DNA of 64,000 bases, taken from the NCBI RefSeq assembly GCF_003261175.1, contig NZ_QLNP01000090.1, forward strand, positions 1-64,000, given 5' to 3'. This document shows, one piece after another, positions 13,831-26,059 of the stretch; the stretch's first letter is position 1, and each line of letters opens with the position of its first letter. Both the position numbers and the translations under genes were made by a program. The notes below the pieces were generated by a model, which was not told where the DNA came from, did not search any database, and saw only the letters and a list, made by a program, of their open reading frames with translations. The DNA comes from Arthrobacter globiformis (lineage in GTDB: Bacteria; Actinomycetota; Actinomycetes; Actinomycetales; Micrococcaceae).

Positions 13831-13958
13831 ACAACTTGCCTGAGCTAAAGACATCGACGATGCGCTAGCAGCGGCGAGCCTGACTTCGGTGCGCCCCCCA
13901 GGGCGTAGCACATGGAAATACGGCGCACTGTTACAGGCCCCGGCCGTAGTCTGTTTAT

Positions 13959-16900
13959 ATGCCTCGTTTTGCGCTTGATATCGACTCCGTCCCCCGCCCC
14001 GACCGTTCGCAGGAGCTTCTCGATGCAGTGAACCAACGGGTCGTCATTGCCGACGGGGCGATGGGCACCATGCTGCAGGACCGCGAACTGTCGCTCGAGG
14101 CCGACTTCCAGAACCTCGAGGGCTGCAACGAGATCCTCAACGACACGCGCCCTGATGTCATCGGGGACATCCACGACGCCTACTTCGCCACAGGCATCGA
14201 CGCGGTCGAAACCAACACCTTCGGTGCGAACTGGTCAAATCTCTCCGACTACGGCATCGACGACCGGATCGAGGAGCTCGCGCGGAAGGGCGCAGAGATC
14301 GCCCGCGAGCGTGCCGAAGCGGCAGAAAAAACGGACGGACGCATGCGCTGGGTCCTGGGTTCGATGGGTCCGGGCACGAAGCTGCCCAGCCTGGGACACA
14401 CCAGCTATGACTACCTCAAGCAGACGTTCGCGCTGCAGGCCCAAGGCCTCATCGACGGCGGGGCGGACGCCTTCCTCATCGAGACGAGCCAGGACCTCCT
14501 GCAGACCAAGGCTGCGGTCAACGGCTGCAAGCAGGCCATCGTGGCCCGCGGCATCCGCCTCCCGATTTTCGTCGAGGTGACCGTCGAGACCACCGGAACC
14601 ATGCTGATGGGATCCGAAATCGGCGCGGCCCTCACCGCGCTCGAACCCCTCGGCGTCGACGCCATCGGCCTGAACTGCGCCACCGGGCCGGACGAGATGA
14701 GCGAGCACCTGCGCCACCTGTCCAAGCAGTCCTCCGTGGCGATCGCCTGCATGCCCAACGCAGGCCTGCCCGTGCTTACCGCAGACGGCGCGCACTATCC
14801 ACTGTCGCCTTCCGAACTCGCCACCTCGCACGAGCAGTTCGTACGGGAGTTCGGTCTGGGCCTGGTGGGCGGATGTTGCGGTACGACGCCGGAGCACATG
14901 GCCGCCGTCGTCGAACGTCTTGCGCCCTTCCGCACGGCAGCCCCGGGCACCAACGCTGGTACCAGCGCCGCCAGCGGGAGCAAAACAGCCGGCCGCGTTC
15001 CCACCGAACGGGAAGCGGGCATCGCCTCCCTCTACCAGCATGTGAACTTCGACCAGGAATCGTCGTACCTCGCCATCGGTGAGCGCACCAACGCCAACGG
15101 TTCGAAGGCGTTCCGCCAGGCGATGCTTGAGGAGCGCTGGGATGACTGCGTCGATATTGCCCGCGAGCAGATCCGCGTCGGTGCACACCTGCTCGACGTG
15201 TGCATTGACTACGTGGGGCGCGACGGCGTCGCGGACATCAAGGAGGTCGTCTCACGTTTCGCTTCGGCCTCCACGCTCCCGCTGGTGATCGACTCCACCG
15301 AACCGCCCGTGCTGCAGGCCGGGCTCGAACACATCGGCGGGCGTCCGGTCATCAACTCCGTCAACTATGAGGACGGCGACGGCCCGGACAGCCGTTTCGC
15401 ACGCATCATGCCGCTCGTGAAGGAACACGGCACCGCCGTGATCGCCCTGACCATCGACGAGCACGGCCAGGCACGCACCACCGAGGGCAAGGTGGCGATC
15501 GCCTCGCGCCTCATCGACGCCCTGGTGGGTGAATGGGGGATGCGCGTCGAAGACATCATCGTCGACGCCCTGACCTTCCCCATCGCCACCGGCCAGGAGG
15601 AGACCCGCCGGGACGGCATCGAAACGATCGAGGCCATCCGCCAGATCACCACGAAGTACCCCGGCGTCCACACCACCCTCGGCGTCTCGAATGTATCTTT
15701 CGGCCTGAACCCCGCAGCGCGCATCGTCCTGAACTCGGTGTTCCTGCACGAAGCCGTGGAGGCGGGCCTGTCCAGCGGCATCATCGACGCCGCCAAGATC
15801 GTGCCGCTTGCTTCACTGCCGGAGGAGCAGCGCAAGGTGGCACTGGACCTCGTCTGGGACCGCCGCGAATACGACGCCGACGGCAATGTCACGTACGACC
15901 CCCTGGCCAGCATGCTGGACATGTTCGCCGGCGTCGACACCGCGGCGCTGCGCGACCAGCGCGCAGCGGAACTTGCTGCGCTGCCCACCGGCGAACGCCT
16001 GCAGCGGCGCATCATCGACGGCGAGGGCAAGGGCCTCGAGGAGGACCTCGACCTCGCACGCAGCGAAGGCATGACCCCGCTTGGCATCATCAACGACCAG
16101 CTGCTTGAAGGCATGAAGGTGGTGGGCGAACGCTTCGGGGCCGGCGAGATGCAGCTGCCGTTCGTGCTGCAGTCCGCCGAAGTAATGAAGAACGCGGTCG
16201 CGCTGCTCGAGCCGCACATGGAGAAATCGGACGCGTCCGGCAAGGGCACCATGGTGATCGCCACCGTGCGCGGCGACGTGCACGACATCGGCAAGAACCT
16301 GGTGGACATCATCCTCACCAACAACGGCTACAAGGTGATCAACCTTGGCATCAAGCAGCCGATCGCCGACATCATCGCTGCGGCCGAGGAGCACAATGCC
16401 GACGTCATCGGCATGTCCGGGCTGCTGGTGAAGTCCACCGTGGTGATGAAAGAGAACCTGGCCGAGCTGCAGTCCCGTGGCCTCGGGAAGAAGTGGCCGG
16501 TGATCCTCGGTGGAGCTGCCCTGACCCGTGCCTACGTCGAGCAGGACCTGGCGGGCCAGTTCGACGGCGAGGTGCGTTACGCGAAGGATGCCTTCGAAGG
16601 CCTTTCGCTGATGGAGCCGCTGGTGCGCGTTGCCCGGGGCGAGGCGCCGGACGCCGTCGGCCTCCCCGCTTTGAAGAAGCGCCTCCATCGAACGGGTGCG
16701 AAGGTCACGTTGACCGAGCCTGAGGCCATGCCCGGGCGTTCCGACGTGGCCTCCGACAACACCGTGCCTTCGCCGCCGTTCTGGGGTACGCGCATCGTGC
16801 GCGGTGTGGCCCTCCACGACTTCGCGGCGTTCCTCGATGAGCGCGCCACGTTCATGGGACAGTGGGGGCTCAAGCCCGGCCGCGGCGAGGACGGCGCCTC

Positions 16901-17624
16901 CTATGAGGAGCTGGTGGAACGCGAGGGCCGGCCGCGCCTGCGGTACTGGATGGACCGCATCCTCGGCGAGGGCATGCTCGACGCGTCCGTCGCCTACGGC
17001 TATTTCCCGGTGGTTTCCGAGGGCGAGCAGGTGGTGGTGCTGCACCACGGTACGGATCCCGACGGCGTCCTCGGCACCCCGGGGCTCCTCGCCCCGGACG
17101 GCGGGTCAGGCGGTCCGATCGGCACCGAGCGGCTGCGGTTTGACTTCCCGCGCCAGCGCCGCGACCGGCACCTGTGCCTCGCCGACTTCGTCCGCTCGCG
17201 CGAAGCGGGTCAGATCGACGTGCTGCCGGTGCAGCTGGTCACCGCAGGCGGCAACGTCGATGAGGTGACTGCCAAACTTTTCGCCGGCGATCACTACCGG
17301 GACTACTACGAGCTCAACGGCCTGGTCATGCAGCTCACGGAGGCGCTCGCGGAGTTCTGGCATGCGCGCATCCGCTCGGAGTTGGGCTTTGCGGCCGAGG
17401 AGCCGAAGGACAAGGCCGGGCTGTTCAAGCTCGACTACCGTGGTGCGCGGTTCTCGCTCGGATACCCCGCATGCCCGGACATGGAGGACCGCCGCAAGGT
17501 GGTGGAGCTGCTGCACCCCGAGCGGATGGGCGTGGTCCTGAGCGACGAGCTGATGCTGCACCCCGAACAGTCCACCGACGCCTTCGTGTTCCACCACCCG
17601 GAGGCGAAGTACTTCAAGGTGTGA
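13959..17624 (+). CDS. metH: Cobalamin-dependent methionine synthase
   Basis: A 1221-residue, full-length MetH that transfers a methyl group from methyltetrahydrofolate via cobalamin to homocysteine. The homocysteine domain (about 1-330) has its zinc cysteines in GLNCATGP (near 239) and GGCCGTTP (306-307). The pterin domain starts at YLAIGERTNANGS (about 367). The cobalamin domain carries the DxHxxG motif DVHDIGKN (about 772-779). The C-terminal AdoMet reactivation domain contains FSLGYPACPDMEDR. There is no cobalamin riboswitch in the 128 bases upstream. The gene overlaps by 11 bases the convergent ECF transporter gene, a possible supplier of its cofactor. Confidence 0.97.
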   Translation: MPRFALDIDSVPRPDRSQELLDAVNQRVVIADGAMGTMLQDRELSLEADFQNLEGCNEILNDTRPDVIGDIHDAYFATGIDAVETNTFGANWSNLSDYGIDDRIEELARKGAEIARERAEAAEKTDGRMRWVLGSMGPGTKLPSLGHTSYDYLKQTFALQAQGLIDGGADAFLIETSQDLLQTKAAVNGCKQAIVARGIRLPIFVEVTVETTGTMLMGSEIGAALTALEPLGVDAIGLNCATGPDEMSEHLRHLSKQSSVAIACMPNAGLPVLTADGAHYPLSPSELATSHEQFVREFGLGLVGGCCGTTPEHMAAVVERLAPFRTAAPGTNAGTSAASGSKTAGRVPTEREAGIASLYQHVNFDQESSYLAIGERTNANGSKAFRQAMLEERWDDCVDIAREQIRVGAHLLDVCIDYVGRDGVADIKEVVSRFASASTLPLVIDSTEPPVLQAGLEHIGGRPVINSVNYEDGDGPDSRFARIMPLVKEHGTAVIALTIDEHGQARTTEGKVAIASRLIDALVGEWGMRVEDIIVDALTFPIATGQEETRRDGIETIEAIRQITTKYPGVHTTLGVSNVSFGLNPAARIVLNSVFLHEAVEAGLSSGIIDAAKIVPLASLPEEQRKVALDLVWDRREYDADGNVTYDPLASMLDMFAGVDTAALRDQRAAELAALPTGERLQRRIIDGEGKGLEEDLDLARSEGMTPLGIINDQLLEGMKVVGERFGAGEMQLPFVLQSAEVMKNAVALLEPHMEKSDASGKGTMVIATVRGDVHDIGKNLVDIILTNNGYKVINLGIKQPIADIIAAAEEHNADVIGMSGLLVKSTVVMKENLAELQSRGLGKKWPVILGGAALTRAYVEQDLAGQFDGEVRYAKDAFEGLSLMEPLVRVARGEAPDAVGLPALKKRLHRTGAKVTLTEPEAMPGRSDVASDNTVPSPPFWGTRIVRGVALHDFAAFLDERATFMGQWGLKPGRGEDGASYEELVEREGRPRLRYWMDRILGEGMLDASVAYGYFPVVSEGEQVVVLHHGTDPDGVLGTPGLLAPDGGSGGPIGTERLRFDFPRQRRDRHLCLADFVRSREAGQIDVLPVQLVTAGGNVDEVTAKLFAGDHYRDYYELNGLVMQLTEALAEFWHARIRSELGFAAEEPKDKAGLFKLDYRGARFSLGYPACPDMEDRRKVVELLHPERMGVVLSDELMLHPEQSTDAFVFHHPEAKYFKV

Positions 17625-20508
17625 GCTGACGCCCGTCCCTGTCCTGTACAGATTGAGCCCGGGCAGGTAGCCCGCCCGGGCTTCCACCCGGGCCGGAGAC
17701 CGGCTTTACCCGCCGCAGTGCGGCCAGGATTGCCCGCCCCACCACGGTGATTCCGATGATCGTGGTGACGGCGCGAAGGGTGTCCCAGCCCGCCGTCGAG
17801 GTCAAAAGCGAGTAGAGCAGGAAGCTGCTGAGGTTGGTGGCCAGCGGCGCGCCGGGCTGGTAGGAGATGCCGGTGCCGGCGCCCACCGCGAAGGGCCAGA
17901 ACCACAGATTGGTCAGCAGGCCGAACACGTAGGACGCCAGGACGCCGTAGCCGCAAAGCATCCAGAGTTCGGCCCCCCCGCGCACCCGCCGGGGGAGCAG
18001 GCCTGCCCCGGCGCCCACCCACGCACAGGCGAAAATCTGGAATGGTGACCACGGGCCGATACCGCTCCACAAGGCGCTTGAGACGGCGATGGTGGCGGCG
18101 CCGAGGAGCATGCCGAAACGGGCGCCGAAGGCCCGGCCGGCCAGGATCAGCAGGATAAAGACTGCCTCCACACCCCCGACGCCGGTGCTGGCCACCCGCA
18201 CCGCCGATCCGACGGCTGCCAGGACGCCGAGCAATGCCACCGTGTGTGCGGAGCGGACCGAGCCGTCGAGGGACACCACGATGGCCACGACGGCCAGGGG
18301 GGCAATGGCCAGGGCCGCGTAGGGGACGGCCGCTGCGGCATCCTCGGGGAGTGCCGCAGCGAGCAATGGCCAGCAGAATGCACCGAGAGCCAGAAGGTTT
18401 GCAGCCGCGAGGACGATGAGCTCCGCAGTCCGTGGCATGCGGAAGCGGCGGGCTTTCTCCGTAGCTGGAATGTCTGTTCGCCGGTCGATGAACGCTGGTG
18501 CTGTGATGCCTGGTGCTGTGATGCGCTGTGGTGTGGCCGGACCGGCCGGGGTGGCGCCGATCGGGACGGCTTCTGCAGACGTTGCTTCTGTCAGGGTTGC
18601 GGGGGCGACGCCGTCACGCATCGGGAGGATCCGGGCGCCGAGGCGGTGCGCAAAATCGTGGTCGTGGGTGGCGATCAGGACCGCCGCGCCCTCATCCGCT
18701 GCGGCCCGCAGCGCCGCCGAGACTGCTGTGCGTGCCGCAGGATCGAGTCCGCGGGTGGGCTCATCGATCAGGAGTACCTCCGGGCTGTCCATGGTCTGCA
18801 GCGCGATGGCGAGGATACGGCGTTCGCCTGCGGAGAGGTCCCGGGGATGCTCGTGCCCAATGGGGATTCGAACGTCTCCCCGCAACCGGGCAAGGTGAGA
18901 CTCCGCAGACCTTGGACGAATGCGGTCACTGCCGGAGCGACGCAAAGCGCGCGCCTGGCGCCTGTCGGCCGCGCGGAGCTCTGCGGCGACGGTGTCCCTG
19001 GTAAAGAGGTCATCGGAGGCGTCCGGCACAAGGGCGACCCGCCCGCCGTCGGCCGTTTTTCCATCGGGCCTGCCTTTACCGAGCGCGAGTGACACAAGCA
19101 GGGACGACTTCCCGGCGCCGTTCGGTCCCACCAAGGCGACCACTTCACCGCGGTGCAGGGTCAGGGATGCGCTGCGCACGACCGGCTTGCCCTCGCGGTG
19201 CACCGCGAGGTTCGTCGCAGTCAGCACGGGCGCGTGCTGCAGTTGCTGGACGACCGGCTGCGCCGGCGTCGGACGTTCCCTCGCCGGGTGCGAAGGTACG
19301 GGCGCCACGCCCGGCACCAGGGCGCCGTCGTCGATGGCCCACCACGAGTCGGCGACGGGCACGAGCGGTTCCGCCCGGTGCTCCGCCACGATAACGCAGA
19401 CGCCGTCGCGGGCGAGGGCGTTGAGCACCGCAATGACGCGGGTGCGTGCTGCGGTGTCGAGGTCGGCCAGGGGCTCGTCAACCAGGAGGAGGGCCGGGTG
19501 CTCCACCACCGCGGCCGCGATGGCTACGAGCGCTGCCTCACCCGCCGAGAGCGTGCTGACATTCCGGTCCAGCAGGGCCGACACTCCGATGCGCTCCGCT
19601 ACCTCCAGCACGCGGGCTTTGGCGGTGCCGGATGCCACGCCGCGAAGGTCAAGTGCGAGGGCGATTTCGTCCCGGACCCGGGTGGTGGCGAATGCGGCGC
19701 GGGGATTCTGCAGGACGACGCCGACGAGGCGGGCGGTATCGCGCGGCGGTGCGGTGGCACGGTCCGTTCCGGCCACGCATACCGTCCCGGAAATTTCCCC
19801 GCCGTCAATGTGTGAGAGGAGGCCCGCGAAGCCCCGAAGGATCGTGGACTTGCCGGAGCCGGTGGGCCCGGTAATGGCCGTGATTGAACCGCTCGGCGGC
19901 GCAAAATCGGCAACGTGCACCTGCGCGTTACCGATACGGAATCGTGCGCCCCGGACGAGAACCGGTGCTTCGATGCCGCGGACGGGTTGCTGTGCTGCCC
20001 GGCTCCCGAAGCCGCGCAGCTCCAGGGCAGCGGCAACCCGGCTTGCGTGCTCGAGGGTGCGCTCGAGCACGGGGACCAGGGCGCGGGGCCCGAAGCGTTC
20101 GCCCCGCAACCGAAAAGCGAGGCGCACGGACTTCACGGCGTCGGAGAGCGCCGGGAGCGCCGCCCAGGCCACCACAAGCATCCGGGCGATGCCCTGCATG
20201 GGGCCGCCACGGGCCAGGTGCACGAAGCCGCGGGCCACATCCACCCAGGCGTTGAGCACGCCGAAACCAAGGATCATCCCGGCAATAGGCAGGGCGGACA
20301 GGACCGCCTCCCACAGGCCGGATGCTGTGACCGGACCGAGGAGGACCACATGGGCGTACGGGGCAGGCAGCGGCACCGGCGGAATGTCGAGCAGAACCGG
20401 GCCATCGGTGCCCGCCCCGTTGAAAAGGATGCGGTAGATGACCCGCGCCGCGATGAAGACGACGGCGAGAGCCGCCGCTGCGCGTAACGGCGCGGGTCGA
20501 AAGGTCAC
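17614..20508 (-). CDS. Single-chain ECF transporter (T-A-A-S fusion)
   Basis: A 964-residue protein that appears to hold a whole energy-coupling-factor importer. Residues 1-180 contain two or three membrane helices and an EcfT-like ALELRGFGSR motif. The first ATPase follows with Walker A GPTGSGKS (214-221), LSAGE (320-324) and DEPLADLD (344-351). The second has GPNGAGKS (461-468), LSAGE (558-562) and DEPTRGLD (582-589). Residues 690-935 form about six membrane helices with the substrate-subunit-like segment GIGPWSPFQIFACAWVG. Its GTG start overlaps the stop of the lipoprotein gene (GTGA). The transported compound is unknown; a cobalamin-type vitamin is suggested by the neighbouring metH. Confidence 0.85.
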   Translation of the reverse strand: MTFRPAPLRAAAALAVVFIAARVIYRILFNGAGTDGPVLLDIPPVPLPAPYAHVVLLGPVTASGLWEAVLSALPIAGMILGFGVLNAWVDVARGFVHLARGGPMQGIARMLVVAWAALPALSDAVKSVRLAFRLRGERFGPRALVPVLERTLEHASRVAAALELRGFGSRAAQQPVRGIEAPVLVRGARFRIGNAQVHVADFAPPSGSITAITGPTGSGKSTILRGFAGLLSHIDGGEISGTVCVAGTDRATAPPRDTARLVGVVLQNPRAAFATTRVRDEIALALDLRGVASGTAKARVLEVAERIGVSALLDRNVSTLSAGEAALVAIAAAVVEHPALLLVDEPLADLDTAARTRVIAVLNALARDGVCVIVAEHRAEPLVPVADSWWAIDDGALVPGVAPVPSHPARERPTPAQPVVQQLQHAPVLTATNLAVHREGKPVVRSASLTLHRGEVVALVGPNGAGKSSLLVSLALGKGRPDGKTADGGRVALVPDASDDLFTRDTVAAELRAADRRQARALRRSGSDRIRPRSAESHLARLRGDVRIPIGHEHPRDLSAGERRILAIALQTMDSPEVLLIDEPTRGLDPAARTAVSAALRAAADEGAAVLIATHDHDFAHRLGARILPMRDGVAPATLTEATSAEAVPIGATPAGPATPQRITAPGITAPAFIDRRTDIPATEKARRFRMPRTAELIVLAAANLLALGAFCWPLLAAALPEDAAAAVPYAALAIAPLAVVAIVVSLDGSVRSAHTVALLGVLAAVGSAVRVASTGVGGVEAVFILLILAGRAFGARFGMLLGAATIAVSSALWSGIGPWSPFQIFACAWVGAGAGLLPRRVRGGAELWMLCGYGVLASYVFGLLTNLWFWPFAVGAGTGISYQPGAPLATNLSSFLLYSLLTSTAGWDTLRAVTTIIGITVVGRAILAALRRVKPVSGPGGSPGGLPARAQSVQDRDGRQLTP
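17656..17682 (+). terminator. Hairpin after metH
   Basis: AGCCCGGGC (17656-17664) pairs perfectly with 17674-17682 around a 9-base loop, about 30 bases past the metH stop. It lies inside the 3' end of the opposing ECF gene, so it could end metH transcription but must be read through on the other strand. No T-tract follows. Confidence 0.4.
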
Positions 20509-21062
20509 GCGGCGGGTGTGGCCGGCGCGCCGTCGACCGTGTAGAGCAGTTCCAGGCTCTGTCCCGGGCTGACCTTCAGGGTGGCGAGGCCTTCCTGCGC
20601 GTATGCCCAGGCGCCGGAGGCCGGCTTAACCCACAGCGACCAGTAGGCAAAGGCGGCCGGCATCTTCTTGCATTCTTCCCGGTACGTGCCGCCCTTGTGG
20701 GTGATGTCGAAGTCTGCGGCCGGCACACCGTTCACACGGCACACCAGTTCCTTGGGATATTGGTCAGTGCCCTCGGTCTTCACCTTGGCCTCGTCGAGCA
20801 CCTTGGACGCGAGAGTCGGCGCGTCTACAGGCACGCAAACAGAAGTATCAGCAGCGGCCTGCTTCAGGGCGCCCGAAGCGACGACGACCTTCACGCCGGC
20901 GCAGGGCCCGGCCGCGGCGCTGGACGAAGCCGCTGCCGTGGAAGCGGGTGCTGAGGTGGACGGCTGGGTGGCGGCCGGCGCGGAGCAGGCGGCGAGAGTA
21001 AACAGGAGACCTGCGGCGGCGAGGGAGCTCGCGGCGGCGGTGCGGATCTTAGTCAAAGTCAC
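20505..21062 (-). CDS. Lipoprotein with a DUF4430/transcobalamin-like C-terminal region
   Basis: A 185-residue secreted lipoprotein with a signal peptide and lipobox LAAC near residues 23-26, then an Ala/Ser/Pro/Thr-rich linker. The C-terminal half resembles the DUF4430 (transcobalamin C-terminal-like) fold by its pattern of VCRVNGVPAADF and YWSLWVKPASGAWAYAQEG followed by a VSPGQSLELLY strand. Such proteins often sit beside ECF transporters and are thought to present or sense ligand outside the membrane. Its stop overlaps the start of the ECF gene, so the two are translationally coupled. The family assignment is by eye. Confidence 0.7.
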   Translation of the reverse strand: MTLTKIRTAAASSLAAAGLLFTLAACSAPAATQPSTSAPASTAAASSSAAAGPCAGVKVVVASGALKQAAADTSVCVPVDAPTLASKVLDEAKVKTEGTDQYPKELVCRVNGVPAADFDITHKGGTYREECKKMPAAFAYWSLWVKPASGAWAYAQEGLATLKVSPGQSLELLYTVDGAPATPAA

Positions 21063-21150
21063 CAGTCAAGGGTAGGACGCAGCTGGTCCGGATCCGGATG
21101 CCGTCGCGTTGTGTGACGTTGGATGGGGGCAAATAAGAATCCGCCGCTCC

Positions 21151-22071
21151 CTACCCCGCAGCCCAGGCAACCACCAGCAGCGCCCCCACGCACAGGATGG
21201 TGGTGCAGAGAATCACGTCGCGGGCCACGGTCATGCCCCGGCCGTAGGGGGAGGCGAAGAGGAAGACGTTCTGCGCGGTGGGCAGCGTCCCCATGATCAC
21301 ACTGGCCAGCAGATGCTGCCCCTCCAGGCCAAAGACATAACGTCCCAGCAGCCAGACAATCGCAGGCATGCCGGCGATCTTCAGAAAGGTTGCCACGAGA
21401 GTCTCGGTCCGGCCGTCGTCTTTCTGCAGCGGTGCCCTCCCGGCAAGTGACAGGCCAAAGGCGAGAAGCACCATGGGAACCGCGCCGCCTGCCAGCATGT
21501 CGATGGGTTTCTGCAGCAAGTCGGGTTCCTGCCAGCCTGTCAGTGCCACGACGACGCCGAGTGCCGAGGCGATGATCATGGGGTTGGACAGTGGCTGGAG
21601 GAGCACCTTCTTCCACGAAATCCGGGCCCCGCCGAAGATCCCCAGCAGCGTGAGGTAGAACGGGGCCAGAACCAGGAGCTGAACCAGCAGCACCGGCGCC
21701 ACGTGCTGGGCGGTGCCGACAGCGTACAGCGAGACCGGAATGCCGATGTTGTTGGCGTTGGCGTAGCTGCTGGCCATCGCGCCGACGGCGGTCTCCGCAG
21801 CAGGGCGCCGGAAGAACAGGAAGCTGAGCAGCCAGTAAAGAAGCCCCACTGCCGCTGCAGAAAGCAGCGCCAGCGGGGCATCGGTGCCGAGGGCCGCCCG
21901 GATGTCCGAACCGGCTACCACGGTGTAAAGCAGGGCGGGGTTGGTGATGTAGAAGGCAGTGCGGGTCAGTGCGCCCTGGACTTCCGGCCCCAGAATGCGG
22001 AACCTGGCAGCGAGGTAACCGACGGCGATGACTGCCGAAACGATGAGTATTCCGGAGACAACGCCGCCCAC
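21151..22071 (-). CDS. AEC-family transporter
   Basis: A 306-residue membrane protein with about ten helices in two repeats. It starts MGGVVSGILIVSAVIAVGYLAARF and has the conserved ASSYANANNIGIPVSLYAVG and GTLPTAQNVFLFASPYG motifs of the auxin-efflux-carrier family. Bacterial members move malate, malonate or other organic acids. It lies downstream of gudD on the same strand, separated by a hairpin, so it may be a weakly expressed last gene of the glucarate operon. A paralogue lies at 50755-51678. Confidence 0.88.
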   Translation of the reverse strand: MGGVVSGILIVSAVIAVGYLAARFRILGPEVQGALTRTAFYITNPALLYTVVAGSDIRAALGTDAPLALLSAAAVGLLYWLLSFLFFRRPAAETAVGAMASSYANANNIGIPVSLYAVGTAQHVAPVLLVQLLVLAPFYLTLLGIFGGARISWKKVLLQPLSNPMIIASALGVVVALTGWQEPDLLQKPIDMLAGGAVPMVLLAFGLSLAGRAPLQKDDGRTETLVATFLKIAGMPAIVWLLGRYVFGLEGQHLLASVIMGTLPTAQNVFLFASPYGRGMTVARDVILCTTILCVGALLVVAWAAG

Positions 22072-22154: not shown

Positions 22155-23483
22155 CTACCTGACCAGGCAGGGGCGCTTCGGGTCGAAGGACCAGCCGTCG
22201 ATGTAGTACTGCATGCCGATGCTGTCGTCGCGGGCATCCAGGCCGTGCTGCAGGTACAGCTGGTGCGCCTTGTCCAGCGCCTCGCGGTCCAGCTCGATGC
22301 CCAGTCCGGGCGCAGCAGGAACCTCGATGGCACCGCCCTTGATCTGCAGGGGGTTCTTGGTGAGGCCCTGCCCGTCCTGCCAGATCCAGTGCGTGTCCAG
22401 CGCGGTGATCTCGCCGGGGGCCGCCGCGCCGGTATGCGTGAACATGGCCAGCGAGATGTCGAAGTGGTTGTTCGAGTGGGAGCCCCAGGTCAGCCCGAAC
22501 TCGTTGCACAGCTGCGCCACGCGGACAGAACCGTGCATGGTCCAGAAGTGCGGGTCGGCCAGCGGGATGTCCACGGCGTTGCTGCGGATGGCGTGCGCCA
22601 TTTCGCGCCAGTCCGTGGCGATCATGTTGGTGGCCGTCTTCAGGCCGGTGGCACGGCGGAACTCGGCCATGACCTCGCGTCCGGAGAAGCGGCCTTCGGC
22701 GCCGCAGGGGTCCTCGGCGTAGGCCACGACGCCCTGCATCCGCTTGCCCAGCCGGATGGCTTCCTCGAGCAGCCAGCCGCCGTTCGGGTCAAGCGTGACG
22801 CGGGCATCGGGGAAGCGCTTGGCCAGTGCGGTGACCACGTCCACTTCGTCGTCGCCGGACAGCACGCCGCCCTTGAGCTTGAAGTCGCTGAAGCCGTAGC
22901 GCTCCTGCGCTGCTTCGGCCAGGGCAACGACGGCCTCGGGGGTCATTGCCTCCTGGCGGCGCAGTTCCTCCCAGCGGTCCGACGGCGCGTCCTCCACGAG
23001 GTACGGCAGATCCGTCCGCTTGTGGTCACCAACGAAGAACAGGTAGCCCAGCATCGGCACGGAGGTGCGCTGCTGGCCGTCGCCCAGCAGTTCTGCCACC
23101 GGAACGCCAAGGAACTGGCCATGCAGGTCCAGCAGTGCGGACTCGACGGCGGTGACGGCGTGGACGGTGGTGCGCAGGTCGAAGGTCTGCAGGCCGCGGC
23201 CGCCGGCGTCGCGGTCTGCGAACTCCGCGGCGATCTCGCGCAGCAGCGAACGGTAGCGGGCCACCGGCCTGCCGGCAATCAGCGCCCCGGCTTCCTCGAT
23301 GGTGGTGCGGATCTTCTCGCCGCCCGGGACCTCGCCGAGGCCGGTCCGGCCGTCGGAGTCGGTCACGATGACCACGTTCCGGGTGAAGAACGGCCCGTGG
23401 GCGCCGCTGAGGTTCATCAGCATGCTGTCGTAGCCCGCAACCGGGACTACCTCCACGCGGGCGATTGTCGGCTGGGCGGTCAT
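22155..23483 (-). CDS. gudD: Glucarate dehydratase
   Basis: A 442-residue enolase-superfamily enzyme that dehydrates D-glucarate (and L-idarate) to 5-keto-4-deoxyglucarate. The KxK catalytic motif is in FKLKGG (around residue 205), the metal/active-site segment DPNGGW follows, and the His base lies in [16 protein letters not shown]. The C-terminus [13 protein letters not shown] is typical of the family. Its ATG overlaps the stop of the upstream aldehyde dehydrogenase (ATGA), so it is the third gene of the operon kdgD-aldehyde dehydrogenase-gudD. With its neighbours it converts glucarate to 2-oxoglutarate. Confidence 0.96.
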
Positions 23484-25108
23484 GCGTTGACCTCCTCTTT
23501 CTCTGTCCGAGCGGCGTCAGCGGCGGGGACCACGACGCCGTCGATCCGGCGGTTCAGCTGCCACGGGTTGGCGTCCTGGAGCGGTGCGGGCAGCAGTTCC
23601 TGGGGCATGTTCTGGTAGGCGACCGGCCGGATGAACCGGTTGATGGCCAGCGTACCCACGGAGGTGGTGCGCGTGTCAGAGGTGGCGGGGAAAGGTCCGC
23701 CGTGGACCATGGCGTGCCCAACCTCGACGCCGGTGGGCCAGCCGTTCACGATGATGCGCCCCACCTTCTGTTCCAGCGCCGGGATCAGCTGTGCCGCCGT
23801 CGGGTAGTCCTCTTCGGTGAGCTGCAGGGAAGCGGTGAGCTGCCCCTCGATCCGGTGGGTGGCCTCCACCAGTTCCTCGGCGGAGGAGTAGCGGATGACC
23901 AGGCTGGCCGCGCCGAAGATTTCCGCGTGCAGCACCTCGTTGCTGATGAAGTCGCGGATTTCGGTGCCGTAGATGGCGGGTGCGGGTGCGTTTTCGGTGG
24001 GGCCGGGGGTTCCGGTGCCGACGACGGTCACGTTCTCGGCGGCGCCAAGTGCCTCGGTCCCGGAGGTCCAGGAGCCGGCGATGCCGGCGGTGAGCATGGT
24101 CTGGCCGGCGCAGGCGGAAACAGCGCGGCCGACGGCGGCAGCCAGTTTGTCGCCCGCCTCATCGGCGGGGGCGAACAGCAGGCCGGGGGAGGTGCAGAGC
24201 TGGCCGGAGCTGCCGGTGACGGCGGTGACGTACTGCTGTGCCAGGGCGTCAATCTGCTCGGCGGAGCCGTTCAGGGCGCCGGGGAAGACGAAGACCGGGT
24301 TGAGCGAGGACATCTCCGCGTACACGGGGATGGGTTCCGGGCGGGCGGCGGCGGCGCGCATCAGGGCGATGCCGGCGCTCTGCGAGCCGGTGAAGCCCAC
24401 GGCCTTGATGGCCGGGTCCGCCACGAGGGCCTGGCCGATGCTGCTGCCCGGGCCGTAGATGAGGGAGAAAACGCCCGGGTGCAGGCCGAGGTCAGCAACG
24501 GCCTTGGCGATTGCCTGGCCTACGAGTTCGCTGGTGCCCGGGTGGGCGTTGTGGGCCTTGAAAACGACGGGGCAGCCGGCGGCGAGGGCAGAAGCGGTGT
24601 CTCCACCCGCCGTCGAGAAGGCCAGCGGAAAGTTGCTGGCACCGAAGACGGCGACAGGACCGAGCGGGATCTGGCGCTGGCGGATGTCGGCGCGCGGCAA
24701 AGGCGTGCGGTCGGGGATCGCCGGATCGATGCGAACGCCGCGGAAGTCGCCCTGGCGGACCACGTTCGCGAAGAGCCGCAGCTGGCCGGTGGTGCGGGCG
24801 CGTTCACCCGTGAGGCGGGCTGCGGGCAAGCCCGTCTCTTGGCCCGCGCGGACAATCAGTTCGTCGCCAATGGCTTCGATGTTGTCCGCAATGGCGTCCA
24901 GGAACGCGGCGTGGGTTTCGGGGTCAAGCGTGCTGAACGAGGCGAAGGCCTCGGCGGCCGCGGCAGTGGCGGCCTTGAGCTGCTCCTCGGTGAGCAGGGT
25001 GTAGGCGGGCTCGAGCTGTTCGTTGCTGGCCGGGTTGAAGGCGAAGGTGGTCTTGCCTTCGCCTGCAACGGTTTGTCCGGCGATCAGAGAGTGTCCGGTG
25101 AGGGTCAC
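23480..25108 (-). CDS. 2,5-dioxovalerate (ketoglutarate semialdehyde) dehydrogenase
   Basis: A 542-residue aldehyde dehydrogenase of the NADP-type KGSADH branch, which oxidises 2-oxoglutarate semialdehyde to 2-oxoglutarate, the last step of the pathway. It has the branch motif [25 protein letters not shown] (written here as the two parts GASNFPLAF and [11 protein letters not shown]), a catalytic Glu in [10 protein letters not shown] and a catalytic Cys in [14 protein letters not shown]. The GTG at 25108 has AGGAGG eight bases upstream. The gene sits between kdgD and gudD, which fixes its role better than sequence alone would. Confidence 0.92.
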
Positions 25109-25144
25109 AGTTTGTTCCTCCTGGGTTAAGGTGTGGGCCAGCGG

Positions 25145-26059
25145 TTAGGAGACCTTGGCGATGAGTGCCTTGAGGTCGGCCAGGTCCTGCGGCGCAAGGT
25201 TCTGCAGCGGGGGACGGACGCCGCCGGCCGAGCGGCCGATCGCGTCGAGACCGCCCTTGACGATGGAGACGGCGTAGCCCTTCACGCGGTCGCGGATGTC
25301 CAGGTACGGGATAACGAAGTCGTTGAGCTTCTGGTTGACGGCCACGCGGTCCTGGTTGCGAACGTCCTGGTAGAAGTCGAGCGCGAACTGCGGGACGAAG
25401 TTGTACATGGCGCTGGAGTAGGTGCTCATGCCCAGCTGCAGGAGCGGCAGTGCGAAGGTCTCTGCCGTGGGAAGGCCACCCAGGTAAAACAGACGGTCGC
25501 CGAGCTTGGCATAGACGCGGGCGTCGTGCTCGAGGTCGCCCACGCCGTCCTTGAAGCCGATCAGGTTTTCGTGGCGGTCGGCCAGGGTGGCCACGGTGGT
25601 GTCCTTGTAGATGGCGTTGGCGCGGTTGTAAATGATGACGCCGAGGGACGTTGAGCTGCAGACCGCGCTGACGTGCTCGATCAGGCCGCCCTGGTCGGCT
25701 TCGGTCAGGTACGGCGGCAGGAGCAGGATTCCCTCGGCACCGGCGGCCTCGGCAGCCTTGGCGTTCTCGATGGCCTGGGCGGTGGATCCGCCGGCAGAGG
25801 CCAGGACGGGAACGGTGCTGCCGACTTCTTCGACGGCGGCACGGACCACGCGGGCCGACTCCGCGGGGGTGAGGGAGAAGCCCTCACCCGTGCCGCCGGC
25901 GGCGAAGAGGCCGGCAACGGGGTAGCTGGCCTGCCAGGCCAGGTGCTTGCGGTAGTTTTCCTCGTCGAACTGCAGCTCTGCATCGAAGGAGGTCACGGGG
26001 AAGGACAGCAGCCCGTCCTTGAGGGTGTTGGCGAGTTCCTGGGGTGAAAGTTTAGCCAC
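25145..26059 (-). CDS. kdgD: 5-dehydro-4-deoxyglucarate dehydratase
   Basis: A 304-residue class I aldolase-fold enzyme of the DHDPS/NAL family that dehydrates and decarboxylates 5-keto-4-deoxyglucarate to 2-oxoglutarate semialdehyde. The N-terminal region [17 protein letters not shown] and the Schiff-base lysine in [14 protein letters not shown] (about residue 168) are visible. The GTG start at 26059 has AAGGA seven bases upstream. It is the first gene of the operon. A promoter with a likely LysR site lies at 26115-26161. Confidence 0.95.

Follow-up and report, generated by a model that had tools for sequence, protein, structure and literature searches.

We propose that a single gene in a 64,000-nt stretch of the Arthrobacter globiformis genome (contig NZ_QLNP01000090.1, positions 1 to 64,000; hereafter the window) very probably encodes a self-contained importer of the energy-coupling factor (ECF) type for cobalamin (vitamin B12 or a related corrinoid), with the cobalamin-dependent methionine synthase MetH as its main or only client. 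ECF pumps usually consist of three or four proteins, which in some soil actinobacteria have apparently been merged into one. The chain of 964 residues carries, in this order, an EcfT part (T), two ATP-binding cassette (ABC) ATPases (A) and an S-component domain (S). A lipoprotein gene overlaps its start by 4 nt (GTGA), and metH converges on it, the 3′ ends of both genes overlapping by 11 nt (Table 1). The initial annotation, made from this DNA alone, had described the single T-A-A-S chain, the overlapping lipoprotein and the convergent metH, and all three descriptions were borne out.

When one genome per species was scanned with the S part, 173 relatives were found, and the best 80 of these were fetched as loci, from Arthrobacter, Pseudarthrobacter, Microbacterium and further Microbacteriaceae. 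All four domains lie within one open reading frame in 76 of the 80 loci; in three of the others they are split, and the last is on a contig of 3 kb. The fusion is therefore not a product of chance. Some relatives have neighbouring operon genes that overlap by a few nucleotides, and a frameshift could join these, so that two or three adjacent genes might have been merged by a sequencing or gene-calling error. The probability of such an artefact is negligible, given the recurrence of the single frame across many assemblies, a distance from the second H-loop to the start of S that ranges from 83 to 135 residues (66 rows with both landmarks) and a T part that is truncated rather than merely joined. 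Lipoprotein homologues are present in 79 of the 80 loci, and in 68 of the 77 examined the lipoprotein stop overlaps the start of the fusion by the same 4 nt. metH falls inside the fetched stretch in 57 of the 80 loci, is convergent in all 57 and lies at most 300 nt away in 33. Judged by its sequence, the identity of the metH product in the window is certain.

Table 1. Features of the importer locus and of related loci (positions refer to the window unless a locus is named)
Feature	Position	Strand	Remarks
ecfT-ecfA-ecfA-S fusion gene, 964 aa, GTG start	17614..20508	-	one open reading frame; predicted one-chain cobalamin ECF importer
EcfT part, residues 1-175	19984..20508	-	CbiQ match, BLAST to unfused T, alignment, hydropathy
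First ABC ATPase, residues 176-420	19249..19983	-	Walker A, Q-loop Gln, LSAGE, Walker B with catalytic Glu, H-loop
Second ABC ATPase, residues 421-640	18589..19248	-	Walker A, LSAGE, Walker B, H-loop; Q-loop VPD
Ala/Pro/Thr-rich variable linker between second ATPase and S, residues 641-690	18439..18588	-	lowest conservation of the chain
S-component domain, residues 691-945	17674..18438	-	fold match to FolT/ThiT/RibU
Lipoprotein gene, 185 aa, lipobox LAAC at residues 23-26	20505..21062	-	transcobalamin beta-domain-like fold
metH, cobalamin-dependent methionine synthase	13959..17624	+	TIGR02082, 1334 bits; presumed client of the fusion
Conserved 12-nt cis element CGTCACACAACG upstream of lipoprotein	21107..21118	-	exact in window
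TACCCT, -10-like (TAnnnT) box 6 nt before lipoprotein GTG	21069..21074	-	conserved in most aligned rows
TAGTCT, -10-like (TAnnnT) box 6 nt before metH ATG	13947..13952	+	reading as -10 inferred
Second secreted proteins, unfused loci	L132:1405-2904, L133:11590-12942, L138:1723-3327, L141:11254-12558, L144:2376-3473		

Domain make-up of the chain

Going by sequence and structure models, the chain combines the features that define an ECF-type ABC transporter: an S-component fold, two ABC ATPases and a CbiQ-family EcfT with two motifs. The match of the EcfT part to CbiQ is weak (residues 60-169, E 0.0013, 18.8 bits against a cut-off of 25). It is homologous by BLAST to the T proteins of unfused relatives, of which two were scanned and both match CbiQ above the cut-off. 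The part had been called short and EcfT-like, which holds, with the correction that it is truncated at both ends. In an alignment with 12 of 17 unfused EcfT proteins, about 60 N-terminal and 140 C-terminal residues are gone, and by hydropathy an early segment and three or four late ones are missing. Two clear hydrophobic segments remain, together with a weaker third that is visible only at a lower threshold. The N-terminal loss is not a start-site error, since the open frame, of 1003 codons, extends just 39 codons upstream of the GTG, and one unfused T protein (L139) is likewise short at its C-terminus. Two motifs are kept, RLRG (133-136) and ELRGFG (163-168), which we take to be the EcfT coupling motifs. 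Two stretches of the chain match ABC_tran (E 6e-40) and, in a comparison limited to the locus, a BtuD model is one of many that the ABC halves match, with a score below the BtuD cut-off. The Q-loop of the second ATPase reads VPD in the fused lineage, VPE in three loci (L127, L128, L129) and VPQ in the 17 unfused relatives.

Comparison of the C-terminal part with known S-components had been set beforehand as a check, and its model, of moderate confidence, indeed matches FolT, ThiT and RibU, with FolT as the best row. Instead of the six helices first described, this model shows nine helical stretches; the two ahead of the S core are of low confidence. No Pfam model matched the S part of the window at E<=0.1, and two Pfam S-component models were matched by 6 and 5 of 33 S homologues. 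The S-family profile had no match at E<=1 among PDB sequences.

Conservation across 77 homologues and the window, in blocks of 20 residues, is lowest in the linker (0.27-0.58), and the S part is among the best conserved (0.83-0.96). Poor conservation of the linker would be compatible with a chain that is translated whole and then cleaved there, leaving an ordinary multi-subunit importer as the mature machine, and two related loci (L127, L129) do encode S separately. We consider this improbable, as the linker has no well conserved stretch as a possible cleavage site and the one-chain form has been retained across two families.

Distribution of fused and unfused forms

A profile of the S part matches 159 of 296 sampled genomes of the class. 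We read 65 such loci: 55 have three separate genes, for T, AA and S, six carry the full fusion, two have T-AA fused with a separate S and two have no T in the stretch. All eight fused or half-fused loci come from the Micrococcaceae, the family of the window, and from a second family taken for Microbacteriaceae; the fusion occurs in none of the other 57. In a tree of 38 S rows, the 21 fused and half-fused ones stand behind a single, fully supported branch with a length of 1.12 changes. The half fusions, in which T-A-A form one chain (L127:4998-7777 and L129:4389-7756), represent either intermediates toward the full fusion or later splits.

Lipoprotein partner

The lipoprotein had been annotated as DUF4430/transcobalamin-like. 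None of its 34 family members matches Pfam DUF4430 at E<=0.1, so that the first half of this label was not upheld. The second half was: fold comparison of the lipoprotein model shows a transcobalamin beta-domain-like fold, and as modelled the likeness is one of fold, not of sequence. At unfused loci a lipoprotein-like frame, where found, mostly precedes T; BLAST finds one in only part of them. Five unfused importers are preceded by a second secreted protein (Table 1), and four of the five gave toroid-type matches (Prenyltrans or SQHop, one above a cut-off), a class of fold to which the alpha domain of transcobalamin also belongs; the fifth gave no match. A profile of these proteins matches in 12 of 17 unfused genomes, including the five that supplied it, each time with the best match beside the importer, and in none of 14 fused-lineage genomes. 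The second secreted proteins and the beta-like protein together resemble the two halves of transcobalamin, encoded as separate genes.

Cobalamin as the predicted substrate

Among the 17 unfused loci, nine carry a cobalamin-family riboswitch above the Rfam curated score, upstream of S and on its strand. A genome-wide search with RF00174 (E<=0.001) finds a match upstream of S, on its strand and less than 8 kb away, in 15 of these 17 genomes. Nine of the matches are above the cut-off and six score 24-29 bits, two of the six exceeding the cut-off of the adenosylcobalamin (AdoCbl) model; two genomes (G416, G410) have no RF00174 match upstream of S. The same 17 genomes (~78 Mb) hold 78 RF00174 matches; with an even spread, the S sites would be expected to receive fewer than 0.1 of them. 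In the fused lineage, no RF00174-type riboswitch was found in the window or its genome, nor any match whatsoever in the nine genomes searched.

Co-occurrence with vitamin-related genes had been named as a further check. It was found for the B12 enzyme MetH and not for B12 synthesis. In 41 genomes of two families, 14 that have S and 27 from among those that lack it, MetH scores above the cut-off in 14 of 14 genomes with the importer versus 0 of 27 without, a split that occurs within three genera. The full fusion is present in twelve of the 14, or seems to be in those known from their S part only (open frames of at least 964 codons), and the other two have the half fusion (L127, L129). In the window's family, 149 sampled genomes include eight with S, all of which have MetH, and a diverged MetH is found in two of the 141 others. 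In these two genomes (G020 and G092, loci L147 and L148) the diverged metH (71% identity) has no importer nearby, and another route for B12 may therefore exist. A search of 25 genomes for the B12-binding domain PF02310 gave a single match in every one of the 14 importer genomes, always within MetH, and none in the other 11; in the window's genome MetH is likewise the sole match. Class II ribonucleotide reductase is above the cut-off in none of the 25. CobI/CbiL exceeds it in none of the 14 importer genomes versus 9 of 17 unfused relatives, and MetE in 12 of the 14, with one just below and one partial match only. Since MetE is also present in the window's genome, import of B12 is probably optional for methionine synthesis there. 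Read from their gene content, the 14 importer genomes probably do not make B12 from scratch and are probably opportunistic users with one B12-binding-domain enzyme that is mostly dispensable.

An importer for cobalamin or another vitamin had been suggested at the outset. The choice of cobalamin over other vitamins is well supported by the riboswitches of unfused relatives, the transcobalamin-beta fold of the partner and the MetH-only profile. That the importer has some other specificity and stands beside metH by chance gene order is very improbable: its S fold is common to folate, thiamine, riboflavin and biotin importers, FolT is the best fold row and folate is also used by MetH, but the riboswitches, the partner fold and the joint presence or absence of importer and MetH inside three genera speak against it. 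Import of a B12 precursor or other corrinoid (cobinamide, cobyrinate, other cobamides) that feeds salvage, instead of complete B12, is rather unlikely. Riboswitch control in relatives and a transcobalamin-like partner are compatible with any corrinoid, and a review glosses cbrUVT as serving cobyrinate diamide uptake (PMC8123684). Some weak evidence to the contrary comes from MetH, the sole protein with a B12-binding domain found, which requires a complete cobamide; no search for salvage genes was made.

Upstream elements and neighbouring genes

The core pattern of CGTCACACAACG has 57 matches in 79 loci, 56 of them at the site upstream of the lipoprotein. The position of the TACCCT box suggests that the lipoprotein transcript is leaderless, and the two elements together look like a leaderless promoter with an operator. 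No leader able to house a riboswitch appears to be left before the lipoprotein GTG. metH has its own conserved upstream block, which differs from that of the lipoprotein. Beyond the lipoprotein, and also on the minus strand, lie genes for D-glucarate breakdown (22155-26059), namely a glucarate dehydratase (just under the cut-off), an aldehyde dehydrogenase and a 5-dehydro-4-deoxyglucarate dehydratase (above the cut-off). Between these and the lipoprotein is a membrane-protein-like frame of 306 aa (21151-22071, minus strand) that resembles an AEC-type permease by eye and has no NCBIfam match at E<=1e-20.

Proposed mechanism

For the cobalamin importer that we favor, the surface lipoprotein, related to the transcobalamin type but with the beta domain only, would capture the corrinoid outside the cell and pass it to the S domain. 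ATP hydrolysis by the two ABC halves would then topple the S domain via both coupling motifs in the shortened EcfT, and the toppled domain would release B12 inside for use by MetH. Motor module and S-component are encoded as one chain, and the fusion thus predicts a dedicated energizing module, of the kind that defines group I ECF transporters. The S domain may move and perhaps undock locally, but with a variable linker of some 50 residues holding it to the motor it could not diffuse away or be exchanged. Only tentatively do we suggest that the product may work as a complete ECF transporter in one covalent chain, with S kept within reach of the linker, an EcfT reduced to the coupling helices and some three membrane segments, and one ATPase that lacks the Q-loop glutamine. 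If the fusion is active, ECF transport does not require the S-component to be fully released and exchanged.

Comparison with known systems

ECF-type B12 importers are known from ECF-CbrT of Lactobacillus delbrueckii (PMC5997447, PMC12075633, PMC10368641), which resembles the window's system in its S fold, two ABC ATPases, EcfT, B12 as substrate (predicted for the fusion) and a gene beside a B12 enzyme. CbrT is, however, a separate protein that shares its motor with other S-components and leaves it under ATP, whereas the S domain of the window is covalently tied and, unlike in ECF-CbrT, a lipoprotein is co-encoded. A single-molecule study of ECF-CbrT states that expulsion was not formally shown to be essential and that dissociation is most likely part of the mechanism (PMC12075633), and according to a 2023 paper on expulsion group I S-components may not separate to a great extent (PMC10368641). 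The need for the S-component to leave the motor in each cycle could be tested with a natural importer whose S cannot leave.

Genomes of the actinobacterial acI lineage contain an ECF module under cobalamin/AdoCbl riboswitches that has been predicted to import B12 (PMC5301498). The S profile matches a 1.3-Mb genome (G172, locus L139) with the order T-AA-S and an AdoCbl riboswitch. Through this locus, which we infer to be acI, the acI module probably belongs to the same S family as the window's, from which it differs in having separate genes and a riboswitch rather than one chain without. In the review already mentioned, cbrUVT is listed for corrinoid uptake (PMC8123684). A table of Lacticaseibacillus proteins contains the name 'Additional lipoprotein component of putative cobalamin ECF transporter' (PMC9963975); the pairing of a lipoprotein with a cobalamin ECF importer thus already exists in a protein name, and the likeness of that lipoprotein to the window's is by name.

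In comparison with transcobalamin, haptocorrin and intrinsic factor, the bacterial lipoprotein of the window has the beta domain only, and no alpha-toroid partner as in transcobalamin was found in the 14 fused-lineage genomes. Its fold would tie bacterial B12 capture to that of the animal B12 carrier. In the literature searched, largely without subscription journals, we found no description of a full T-A-A-S chain. It would provide soil actinobacteria with an assignable gene for B12 uptake, and a compact B12 importer for heterologous use. Fusions of ECF subunits, EetB-EcfT and EetB-EcfA, have been reported (PMC9973259). As in the window, they join an S-like subunit to a subunit of the module, but they are two-domain proteins of a flavin system, whereas the chain described here is a complete T-A-A-S.
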